A stretch of DNA of 64,000 nucleotides from Oscillospiraceae bacterium. GTDB lineage: Bacteria > Bacillota > Clostridia > Oscillospirales > CAG-272. Below are positions 51,242-55,954 of this stretch, piece after piece. Position 1 is the first letter of the stretch. Every line of letters begins with the position of its first letter. Under the pieces are notes generated by a model that did not search any database, was not told the DNA's origin, and saw only the letters and a program-made list of their open reading frames with translations. Location of the stretch: the NCBI GenBank assembly GCA_015064445.1, contig SVSE01000002.1, positions 124,001-188,000 on the forward strand, read 5' to 3'. Made by a program: the position numbers and the translations under genes.

Positions 51242-53404
51242 TTATTCGTCTTCCTTGTTAATTAGCGCCATAACGCTGTTTGAAGGAGCATTTGCAGCCA
51301 CAAGAGAAAGTGTTACCGTATCAAAGGTTTTAGTGCCAATCGTGGAGTTATTTACGTAGTCGCTATCAGACTGAATATAGGAAATATTACCCTCAGAATC
51401 AATGATATAAAGAGCAATTATGAGGTTAAGCTTCTCCTTTGCCTCTGCTGAGAAATTGTTAATCGAGCAACTAAACACGGAATATTTCGTGCTAGTCATT
51501 TCAACCTGGAATCCGTATGTGGTGCTCAAAATTCCGTCTGTGAGAAGCTCATCGCCCTCGGCAAATTTTTGTGAATTTACTGCGATCAATCCAAATCTAA
51601 GTGCGCTACCACCTGCACTGATATAGTCGTTATAAGCGTTCCAATCAACTGTAAATCCACCTGTAAGAGAGGTCATGGCAGGATTGCACGCATATCCCTC
51701 AGCTGTGAAGATCGGATTTGCACTCTTCTCTTCCAAAACCTCATCCTCGCATCTTGTGCAGGTGTAGGTCTTGTCGCCCTTTTGGTCGAATGTAATATAT
51801 ACAACTTTGATAAGCTCATCCTTATCGTGTCCAAGCGCCGGCTCGCCTGGCATTCTATCACACTTAATGCATCCCGATGGCAATACACAGGTCGGTGTAT
51901 CATTGATCGTATGCTCGCCACCGTTGAGTTCTATACAGTAGTCAGCACCGTATATAATAGTGTTTTGATTATATGTTACGCCGTTTTCAATATCTAAAAG
52001 ATATTGCTCGTAAGAATAAATGTACTTAGTGTTAAATCTGCTAATACCGTTAAGAGTCTTAAGTCTTTCAGGATCATTACCTGTATAAATGGTAAGGAAG
52101 GTGCCGTTTACAACTCCACTCAAAGAGTCCTTGCCAATCGACTCAATATCCTTGTGCAAAACCAATGTTGAAAGCTTACTACAATTGATAAACATACTTG
52201 GCGAAATGATTTTGTTTTTTACAATAACCTTTTGAAGATTTGCGCATCCATTAAACACATTTTCTCCAACAGTTGTAAGTGTTTCGGGAATAACAATCGT
52301 TCCGGAAACTCCCGAAGCACTAAAAGCATATACCCCGATTGAAGTAAGAGATTCAGGCAAAGACAAGCTTGTCAAGGCATACGCTCTCAAAAAAGCACTT
52401 CTGCCAATAGTTGTAATGTTATCATGAAGAGTGAGTGAATCAATTTTAGGACAATCAACAAAAGCGTATTCATCTACAATTCTGGTATTTTCACCAAAAA
52501 CAACAGTTGTCAAATTGTCGCAGCCTTTACACATATTCACGCCAGCATTGCCGTCAAATGTAAGCTTAACAAGAGAGTCGCAGTTGTAAAAAACATCAGA
52601 GCCCACAGTGGTAAAGCCACCGTCAAATTCAACTTCAGTTACACCGGTTCCTCTGAAAGCACATTTGCCGATTGAAGTCAAAGAGTTGGCAACAATCTTT
52701 CCTGTAAAAGCCGCACAGTAATCAAAAGCATTATCACCAATGGTTTCAAGAACATCCTCTCCCCATTCGACAGTTTCAAGTGCAGAACACTTACTAAAAG
52801 CACTGGCGCCTATCGAAACCGCGCCATTCATTACTACTTTTTTCAAGCTGACCGCTTCAGCAAACAAGTTTGTCGTTATGTTTTTAAGCGAATTTGGAAG
52901 CTCTACTTCGAGTATAGACTCACTTTGATAAAAGTTGTATGTTCCCATTGAGGTAACGCCCTCGGGTACTTTGAGCGTCATAAGAGCAGTAAAGCCCTTA
53001 TCTTTTCTGAAAATTCTATCCTGAATTGTCACAAATCCCGAAGGGATTTCTAAACGAACAATAGAAGCATATGAATACGATTCTCCAGTTGTATCAGCGA
53101 TTGCTGCATTTAATGCAGAAAAATCAAATTCCTTGTTTGATGTACTCAAATTATGGAAGGTTGTATCTGTACATTTCAGGATATAGTATGCAGGATAAAC
53201 CGTATACGAGTTATCCGAATTTTTAAGCATTACTCGAGAGGTGGTGTCAAAGCCTTCCTTTGGTGATATCGAGTCGATTATTTGCACTTCTGACCACTCA
53301 GGGATTACAGGAGCCGTTGACTCTTCCTCGGCACTTACGCAAAAAGCGAAAACACATGCAAGAAGCAACGTCAAAGCAAGTATTAAAAACGTCTTATTTC
53401 TCAT
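51242..53404 (-). CDS. Secreted BspA-like leucine-rich-repeat (LRR_5) protein
   Basis: Signal peptide MRNKTFLILALTLLLACVFAFCVSA; repeats such as SIGASAFSKCSALETV, TIGRSAFLRAYALTSLSLPESLTSIGVYAFSASGV. Confidence 0.85.
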   Translation of the reverse strand: MRNKTFLILALTLLLACVFAFCVSAEEESTAPVIPEWSEVQIIDSISPKEGFDTTSRVMLKNSDNSYTVYPAYYILKCTDTTFHNLSTSNKEFDFSALNAAIADTTGESYSYASIVRLEIPSGFVTIQDRIFRKDKGFTALMTLKVPEGVTSMGTYNFYQSESILEVELPNSLKNITTNLFAEAVSLKKVVMNGAVSIGASAFSKCSALETVEWGEDVLETIGDNAFDYCAAFTGKIVANSLTSIGKCAFRGTGVTEVEFDGGFTTVGSDVFYNCDSLVKLTFDGNAGVNMCKGCDNLTTVVFGENTRIVDEYAFVDCPKIDSLTLHDNITTIGRSAFLRAYALTSLSLPESLTSIGVYAFSASGVSGTIVIPETLTTVGENVFNGCANLQKVIVKNKIISPSMFINCSKLSTLVLHKDIESIGKDSLSGVVNGTFLTIYTGNDPERLKTLNGISRFNTKYIYSYEQYLLDIENGVTYNQNTIIYGADYCIELNGGEHTINDTPTCVLPSGCIKCDRMPGEPALGHDKDELIKVVYITFDQKGDKTYTCTRCEDEVLEEKSANPIFTAEGYACNPAMTSLTGGFTVDWNAYNDYISAGGSALRFGLIAVNSQKFAEGDELLTDGILSTTYGFQVEMTSTKYSVFSCSINNFSAEAKEKLNLIIALYIIDSEGNISYIQSDSDYVNNSTIGTKTFDTVTLSLVAANAPSNSVMALINKEDE

Positions 53405-53611: not shown

Positions 53612-54319
53612 TTATTTTTTGCCCTGTCCGTAATATGCGTTAGGTCCATGCTTGCGATCATAGTGCTTGCGAAGCAAGGTTTCCTGCATTCTTTCAGTTT
53701 TGCCATTAGCATTAAGCATAAGCATCTCTGTGTTATAAGCCATCATAGCAACCTGCTCAAGAACCACAGCTGCCTCAACCGACGCCTTCGCATTATCGCC
53801 CCAAGTGAATGGTCCGTGAGAGTGAACGAGCGCTGCGTGCATTTGAGTTGCACCGATGTCCTTAAGTGCCTCAAGAATTACTGTGCCTGTTTCCTTTTCA
53901 TATGCGCCCTTGATTTCCTCATCAGTCATCTTACGTGTGCAAGGAATCGTAGTGCCAAAGTAATCTGCGTGAGTTGTACCGTAAGGTGTGATGCCTCTGC
54001 CAGCCTGTGCATAGATTACAGCCCAAGGAGAGTGAGTGTGAGTTACACCACCGATTTCAGGATAAGCCTTGTAAAGCTCCAAATGTGTTGCTGTATCGGA
54101 CGAAGGCTTATATGTGCCCTCGATAACATTTCCATCAAGGTCAAGGACAGGAAGCATATCAGGAGTCAAATCATCGTATTCAACGCCAGATGGCTTTATA
54201 ACAACAAGTCCCTTTTCTCTGTCAATTCCGCTAACATTTCCCCAAGTGAATGTAATGAGGTTATATTTTACGAGCATCATATTTGCCTCGTAGACCTCTT
54301 TTTTAAGCTCTTCTAACAT
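53612..54319 (-). CDS. araD: L-ribulose-5-phosphate 4-epimerase-like class II aldolase
   Basis: [56 protein letters not shown]. Confidence 0.85.
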
Positions 54320-54329
54320 ATTTATCTCC

Positions 54330-54923
54330 TTATATCTTTGCTCTTAATTCTACAACCTTGCCGATGATTGTAACGGGCAAGCTCGCAATTTCTTCATTTG
54401 AAAAATATCTTGGCTCGTAAGCAGGATTTGTAGGCATAAGCCTTATGCCCTCGGTATATCTTACAACCTTTTTCATCGTCGCCTCATCGCCAACCAAAAC
54501 GACAGCGATATCGCCATTGTCAACACTGCTTTGACAACGAATAATTACAGTGTCGCCATTTGTAAATCGTGGCTCCATGCTGCGCCCCTTAACACGAAGT
54601 CCGATAAGAGTTGCGCCCTTTGCCAAGGATGCGTCAACATCTACATATTCCTCAACATCCTCGATTGCGTCAATAGGAATACCTGCAGCAACATTTCCAC
54701 AAACAGGAACCTTGATTACATTTGTACTAACCTCGCCAGCAACAAGCTCCCCAGCACCAACGCCAAAAAGCCTTGCAAGAGTTGCAACGGTGTTTGCATC
54801 AGGAGTGCTAACCCCACGCTCATACGCAGAGTAGGTCTGTCGTCTAATGCCAAGATAGTCAGCAACCTCTGCCTGAGTAAGACCCGCGCCCTTGCGCGCA
54901 GATATCAATCTTTGCTTTAACAT
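54330..54923 (-). CDS. XRE-HTH / S24 (LexA/CI-like) self-cleaving repressor
   Basis: [39 protein letters not shown] candidate Ala-Gly cleavage site; GRSMEP catalytic Ser; ATMKKV catalytic Lys. Confidence 0.88.
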
Positions 54924-54975
54924 AATAATTCTCCTATGAAATAGTTAGAATATATAATATCTATATTACAAAATC

Positions 54976-55004
54976 AGTATAGCAAATATTTTTTGCCCTG
55001 TCAA
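54976..55004 (-). promoter_or_regulatory. Repressor-gene promoter with palindromic operator in spacer
   Basis: Minus strand TTGACA-17 bp-TATACT; spacer contains GCAAAAAATATTTGC (54982-54996). Confidence 0.8.
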
Positions 55005-55048
55005 GTGCTTTTTTGAAAATAATGTCATTTATTTTTCACATTTCCCTA

Positions 55049-55077
55049 TTGACAAGGCAAATTTAATTTGCTAAAAT
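55049..55077 (+). promoter_or_regulatory. Divergent promoter with palindromic operator in spacer
   Basis: TTGACA-17 bp-TAAAAT; spacer contains GCAAATTTAATTTGC (55057-55071). Confidence 0.8.
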
Positions 55078-55087
55078 GTTGTCGTAA

Positions 55088-55102
55088 GCAATTTTAATTT
55101 GC
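55088..55102. promoter_or_regulatory. Third operator-like site
   Basis: GCAATTTTAATTTGC, one-base relative of the 55057 site, just downstream of the rightward -10. Confidence 0.65.
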
Positions 55103-55304
55103 TTTTGCTTACCTCTTAAACCGACATACCTCCACTCCTTGTCGGTCATTCGCCCCGTAGCAGATTACTGTTAAGAGCGTGCGCATAGGCTTTAGTGCTT
55201 TGCCTTTCTCCTGCGCAAAATCAGCAAATTTCTGCGCACATATGCCAAAAAGTGGCAGTATGTGTCGATAAAACAGAATTTTAAGATTTTAGGAGGTATA
55301 ATTT

Positions 55305-55574
55305 ATGTGTAAAATATGCAGTTCAATTTATGGTCATTCAAGCGCTTGTCCAGAATATTCGCCAAGAAGTGATGTTTTTTGCGTTTTATGCGAATGCGAA
55401 ATGCAAAAGGACGAGGAGGTGGTAATTACGCCAAAGGGATATGTTTTTTGTCGAGATTGCCTAAGTACGCTTGATATGCACGACTTTTGCTTGTATTTTG
55501 ATGTTGACAACCCCTTTGAGCTTGTCGAAAAATACAACATCTGCCAAATCAAAAGGATAGGTAGATATCAATGA
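55305..55574 (+). CDS. Small Cys-rich (putative zinc-binding) protein
   Basis: CKICSSIYGHSSACPEY...CVLCECEM...CRDCL; RBS AGGAGG; ATGA overlap with next gene. Confidence 0.7.
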   Translation: MCKICSSIYGHSSACPEYSPRSDVFCVLCECEMQKDEEVVITPKGYVFCRDCLSTLDMHDFCLYFDVDNPFELVEKYNICQIKRIGRYQ

Positions 55575-55954
55575 CAATGGAGCAGTTAAAGCGTCTACAC
55601 GCGTTAAACAAGGAAATCGAGCTCGAGAAGGAGCGCCTTTACTCTATGCGTTGTGTTCAAGGCCGTGTCAATTTAAACGGTATCGCTTTAATTTACGAGG
55701 ACGATTTTGCCGAGGATGTGGCTGTTCTTGAAGAAAAAATCAAGACACACCTCAAGGATTGTCTTGCTCTTTACAGGGAAATTTTAGATTTCGTAAATGC
55801 AATTCCCGATCCTCTAATCCGTCTTATAGTCTCGTTAAGATATATAAACGGGCTCGAATGGGAGCAGGTTGCGCTACATATTGGTGGTGGAAATACAGGG
55901 GAGAGTGTGCGTAAAGCGTGCGAAAGGCATCTTCGTAGGTATTTGAAAAAATAA
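55571..55954 (+). CDS. Phage-type ArpU/sigma-like (DUF1492-like) transcriptional protein
   Basis: Coiled-coil N-half, then IPDPLIRLIVSLRYINGLEWEQVALHIGGGNTGESVRKACERHLRRYL, a region-4-like HTH. Confidence 0.65.
   Translation: MTMEQLKRLHALNKEIELEKERLYSMRCVQGRVNLNGIALIYEDDFAEDVAVLEEKIKTHLKDCLALYREILDFVNAIPDPLIRLIVSLRYINGLEWEQVALHIGGGNTGESVRKACERHLRRYLKK

Follow-up and report, generated by a model that had tools for sequence, protein, structure and literature searches.

Here, we report a small gene cassette in the 64-kb window, i.e., the whole stretch of DNA that was analysed, which is probably (we put it at roughly 0.7) a phage-derived unit of the chromosome in which an S24 repressor represses its own synthesis and DNA damage brings induction through cleavage of that repressor. 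From its gene content and relatives, we read the host as a gut-type Clostridia bacterium. Leftward, the cassette carries REP (54330..54923, minus strand), an XRE/S24 repressor of 197 aa, and ALD (53612..54319, minus strand), a class II aldolase-family gene (Pfam Aldolase_II); rightward, it carries ZF (55305..55574, plus strand), an 89-aa Cys-rich protein, and SIG (55571..55954, plus strand), a protein of 127 aa with a coiled coil and a sigma-70 region-4-like HTH. Searching 29 congeneric genomes with the SIG protein gave five further cassettes, six in all, each with the order ALD-REP and, divergently, ZF-SIG-MEM, and each with three operators. The order and strand of ALD are the same in six congeners and in G016, a remote orthologue from another genus. 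ALD starts about 11 bp past the end of REP, in the same direction, and the leftward promoter probably drives transcription of both genes. Farther downstream, past the aldolase, lies a gene for a BspA-type leucine-rich-repeat protein of 720 aa (51242-53404).

Operators within the spacers of two divergent promoters

The leftward promoter of REP(-ALD) (55004..54976, minus strand) reads TTGACA-GGGCAAAAAATATTTGC-TATACT and the rightward promoter of ZF-SIG (55049..55077, plus strand) reads TTGACA-AGGCAAATTTAATTTGC-TAAAAT, both with a 17-bp spacer and an extended TG. Each spacer holds an exact GCAAA-N5-TTTGC palindrome, the predicted operators O1 (54982..54996, within the REP promoter) and O2 (55057..55071, within the ZF-SIG promoter). 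In both cases the palindrome begins 2 bp after the -35 and directly abuts the -10, so that its right arm doubles as the extended -10 TG; the layout shared by the two divergent promoters is TTGACA-N2-GCAAANNNNNTTTGC-TANNNT. A third predicted operator, O3 (55088..55102, GCAATTTTAATTTGC), lies about 10 bp beyond the rightward -10, which would place it at roughly +4 to +18 relative to the inferred ZF-SIG start. The original prediction had described twin TTGACA promoters with 17-bp spacers holding this palindrome, a third related site past the rightward -10 and no involvement of a LexA-type box, and our analysis agrees on all of these, GAAC-N4-GTTC being absent from the interval.

The bare palindrome is not rare. 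There are 9 sites at ≤1 mismatch in the window versus 6.7 expected, and 8 exact bare palindromes genome-wide versus 8 for the reversed control, i.e., no enrichment. When the 381-bp intergenic region was simulated 20,000 times with a first-order Markov model, at least one exact palindrome occurred in 98 simulations and two in 1; the excess over chance is in the pairing and placement of the palindromes, not in the palindrome alone. The combined pattern TTGACA-N2-GCAAA-N5-TTTGC-TANNNT is exact at only these two sites in the 1.77-Mb genome, and its reversed control gave 0 matches genome-wide, even allowing 3 mismatches. The genome search for the motif in promoters that had been suggested earlier finds the exact promoter-plus-palindrome confined to the two promoters of this locus, the other six exact palindromes being within genes or in a terminator-like hairpin. 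Degenerate full-motif matches in the genome were rejected as a regulon; they resemble ordinary TTGACA/TGnTATAAT promoters. Exact promoter-operator matches in genome_contigs (84) and viral_contigs (21) were taken as chance, since they come without a REP, ZF or SIG homologue. The twin-promoter pattern is absent from every other one of the 394 genomes of the order that were searched and from the viral contigs, and the GCAAA-N5-TTTGC motif was not found in the literature searched.

REP as a candidate self-cleaving repressor

REP is an HTH_3 DNA-binding domain fused to a Peptidase_S24 domain (Pfam), and it matches LexA chains in the PDB. Its cleavage residues are the scissile A80-G81, S115 and K151, with 34 from G to S and 36 from S to K, which is a LexA-like spacing; the adjacent XRE/S24 repressor with cleavage-site and Ser/Lys motifs that had been proposed is therefore present. 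The best match of REP is the phage repressor family phrog_4, and it falls below the LexA equivalog cutoff TIGR00498 (88.8 versus 110.95 bits), with the match limited to the C-terminal part. The genome contains a RecA gene and has no PF01726 match (LexA DNA-binding domain), and among the 29 congeners such matches are weak or few, whether or not the cassette is present. The only other S24 match in the genome reads as signal peptidase I, by reading of its sequence. Since the cleavage residues are in place, RecA is present, no LexA was found, and the other S24 protein is seemingly a signal peptidase, we infer that damage-induced cleavage is the most likely trigger; RecA-stimulated self-cleavage of REP in this genome is likely, and inducibility by DNA damage is plausible.

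In the mechanism we propose, REP dimers would bind GCAAA-N5-TTTGC at O1, O2, and O3. Because both of the spacers between -35 and -10 are covered, by O1 and O2, REP bound there should keep RNA polymerase off its own REP-ALD promoter as well as off the divergent one of ZF-SIG, and O3, just within the transcribed region, should add to the block and to cooperative binding. RecA filaments on damaged DNA would stimulate REP cleavage between A80 and G81, by which the HTH would be cut loose from the dimerisation domain and a ...VAA end would be exposed. Both promoters would then fire and yield the small zinc protein ZF together with SIG, a DNA-binding protein that resembles sigma region 4. As the damage is repaired, new REP would shut the unit again; with one repressor under negative autoregulation, the expected response is a graded pulse that resets itself.

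G016 bears directly on the trigger. This genome, which is 8% contaminated, has the same gene order (ALD-REP and, divergently, ZF-SIG), and its REP is 54-56% identical with an identical recognition helix. Both spacers again contain their operators, O1 and O2 (the latter at one mismatch), and a degraded O3 is in place; the O1-O2 distance is 96 bp (75+21), two helical turns longer, and the DNA is otherwise different. The G016 REP (L008:1501-2109), however, has lost the scissile AG, the Ser, and the Lys (P/S, E, and R, respectively), residues of which Ser and Lys are kept almost without exception in the other relatives examined. In this lineage, therefore, either a different signal must be at work or repression must be constitutive, and the architecture cannot strictly depend on damage induction, since the cleavage residues were lost while the helix and the operators were kept. 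The same observation favors a local repressor switch that is induced by a cue other than RecA/DNA damage, e.g., a ligand, a partner protein, or another stress protease, and S24 regulators such as IrvR (PMC7101444) and PrlP (PMC12273997) answer to cues different from DNA damage, or to such cues in addition to it. We regard this as a minority possibility for REP, against which stands the fact that AG/Ser/Lys and the NVAAG context are retained in all five sequences of the genus that cover REP in full (in the sixth, G154, the contig end falls inside REP and the rest is on another contig).

Shared recognition helix and operators in phage immunity regions

The viral contigs were scanned blind, on the sites alone, for two GCAAW-N5-WTTGC sites 15-17 bp apart. 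Eight contigs were found, of which five (four phage sequences) are divergent repressor regions; in the other three the sites are within coding sequence. The phage immunity regions have 4-5 sites each, mostly at 28-33 bp intervals (operator arrays at L252:5842-5977, L253:5844-5977, L254:2763-2869, and L259:4431-4564), and their repressors carry the helix KRQTYS[AS][YW]ER, e.g., KRQTYSSYERG, which is the same recognition helix as in REP. Thirty-odd S24 relatives with other helices (33-54% identity), on the other hand, have no paired GCAA sites upstream. We consider the viral scan together with this helix contrast the best non-experimental evidence that REP would bind these predicted operators. 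The pairing of the XRE recognition helix with the GCAAA-N5-TTTGC operator, as supported by sequence in phages and in a host chromosome, makes regulon prediction possible. These CI/Cro-type regions (L252/L257, L253/L255, L254, L259/L261) resemble the cassette in the recognition helix, in GCAAA-N5-TTTGC sites at about 30-bp periodicity and in operators overlapping the divergent promoters. They differ from it in having a divergent Cro-like XRE protein and 4-5 operators and in lying inside phage genomes, and their repressors, unlike REP, are about 109-136 aa with no S24 domain seen.

The match of operator type, spacing, and recognition helix to phage immunity regions, the best match of REP to phrog_4 and the occurrence of SIG phage relatives near packaging genes would all suit a true bistable CI/Cro lysis-lysogeny switch, i.e., an intact or remnant prophage immunity region; nevertheless, we consider this improbable. 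For bistability of the CI/Cro type, either positive feedback or another, opposing repressor is required. The rightward operon has no Cro/XRE protein (ZF and SIG examined), and no operator is placed next to the REP -35 so as to activate it, the nearest upstream, O2, beginning about 53 bp from that -35; DNA looping from O2 to the REP promoter may take place. Bistability is therefore not supported, and neither is the word "bistable-type" in the original prediction. Lambda CI-OR combines an S24 repressor, multiple operators between divergent promoters, Cro, and OR2-mediated PRM activation; the cassette has the S24 repressor and multiple operators in common with it, whereas Cro and OR2-type activation are not seen here. 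What stands of the claimed CI-type autoregulated layout is an S24 repressor with operators in both divergent spacers, in an apparently phage-derived style, but not a working prophage switch, the flanks being chromosomal: an aldolase and a membrane protein, with ABC transporters and ribosomal proteins also among the neighbors (these last two named by reading translations). No phage structural or replication genes are in the cassette neighborhood, most cassette-free congeners have ALD and MEM as direct, divergent neighbors, and the cassette sits in the same place in all six.

It is likewise improbable that REP is a genome-wide SOS regulator that replaces LexA and controls DNA-repair genes. Such a role would fit the lack of a LexA here, the few LexA-like matches in the genus, and REP being the only S24 repressor in a genome with RecA. 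However, the exact palindromes outside the cassette are where we described them above, in genes or a hairpin, the recA upstream region has no site at ≤2 mismatches, and most congeners are without REP and also without LexA. REP shares with LexA the S24 self-cleavage module and a presumed autoregulation, but it has an HTH_3/XRE domain rather than the LexA winged helix, and no SOS box.

Conservation of the cassette among congeners

With W allowed at the inner position of the half-site, the exact full motif is found at 12 places in the 29 congeneric genomes, two per cassette genome, and at 0 in the remaining 23 congeners without the cassette. Spacings are constant in 6/6 cassettes (O1-O2, 75 bp; O2-O3, 31 bp), whereas the center of O1 and the flanks vary. 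Within the genus, REP is 73-88% identical and SIG 42-59%, SIG and ZF evolving faster than REP. The idea that the palindromes are chance features of ordinary extended -10 promoters, TTTGC being partly the TGn motif, draws on the overlap of the right half-site with the extended -10 and on TTTGN before the -10 of cassette-free aldolase promoters too, and it is refuted by conservation: the left half GCAAA is missing from nearly all cassette-free aldolase promoters and present at cassette promoters with fixed spacings, and the exact pattern is confined to cassette genomes (12/12).

The cassette-free aldolase promoter (L172-L191) reads TTGACT-17-TA[CT]TAT, with TTTGN before the -10, i.e., the right half-site only. 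This half-site may be the remnant of an operator, or the promoter may just have its ancestral form; 12 of the 22 inner branches of the aldolase tree are open, and a tree so poorly resolved does not separate gain of the cassette from loss. Please note that several congeners, as well as G016, are incomplete or contaminated bins.

Putative outputs of the cassette

ZF has conserved CxxC pairs and is RING/zinc-ribbon-like; Foldseek gives a RING/PHD-like structure match, which is weak. SIG (phrog_36) is predicted to form a long coiled coil followed by a C-terminal HTH, and its relatives match Sigma70_r4 and DUF1492. Foldseek alignments of the SIG HTH reached sigma region 4 of SigD and SigE at probabilities as high as 0.99, but with poor E-values, and a PDB sequence search with SIG gave no significant match. 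Phage relatives of SIG are found downstream of replication-type genes and, by reading of the adjoining frames, near packaging genes. SIG is probably a second-tier transcription activator, kin of phage late/packaging regulators, and we take this as its likeliest role. PADLOC matches were dismissed as generic HTH matches. A more speculative picture, which we offer tentatively, is that a phage immunity module was turned into a two-tier host response, in which self-cleaving REP would free ZF and SIG to switch on unlinked genes of the host or of a resident element, while in one lineage the repressor would have become non-cleavable with its operators and gene order retained.

Relation to known systems

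The closest known system is FddR of Francisella, an unrelated genus that has no canonical LexA. FddR is a phage S24 repressor that was co-opted by its host; it is autoregulated via the palindrome GTG-N11-CAC and controls itself and a divergent gene, with a very small regulon (PMC13148647, PNAS Nexus 2026). The cassette is alike in its apparently captured phage S24 repressor, in a palindrome at its own and the divergent promoter and in its occurrence in a genus apparently lacking canonical LexA; it is also chromosomal, outside a prophage, conserved in place in related species, and has a small predicted regulon. By this analogy, the cassette is best seen as a further case of a captured phage S24 divergent unit, a kind already known from FddR. 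The two differ in the operator (GTG-N11-CAC versus GCAAA-N5-TTTGC here) and in the divergent genes, and here there is a remote orthologue without the catalytic residues and a patchy distribution, the cassette missing from most congeners. IrvR of the Gram-positive Streptococcus mutans is likewise LexA-like (HTH plus S24), encoded on the chromosome and in charge of a local pathway; it is, however, reported to be an exception to RecA control, and its outputs, competence and dextran-dependent aggregation, differ from those of the cassette (PMC7101444).

Phage S24 repressors are emerging as captured, self-contained units of the damage response, and the cassette would add to them a Gram-positive-type case that apparently lacks LexA. 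G016 provides a naturally catalysis-deficient orthologue for comparison and, if our reading is true, REP and its G016 counterpart would offer a natural comparison through which to study a change of inducing signal in an S24 repressor.

Leader RNA of ZF-SIG

A possible 5' RNA hairpin (55084..55112, plus strand) in the ZF-SIG leader overlaps O3. In the alignment, 93.6% of its cells are paired versus 28-56% for slid versions, with two double-sided changes only; shuffle controls are not clearly exceeded, so support from covariation is suggestive only. An Rfam search of the leader gave nothing credible. The 220-nt leader (55083-55304) folds better than shuffles (z = -3.7). In its predicted structure, an early CCUCUUAAA stretch is base-paired to the part around the ribosome-binding site of ZF. 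The leader CUCUU is invariant in six congeners, and a local CUCUUA...UAAGAG stem is seen in four.
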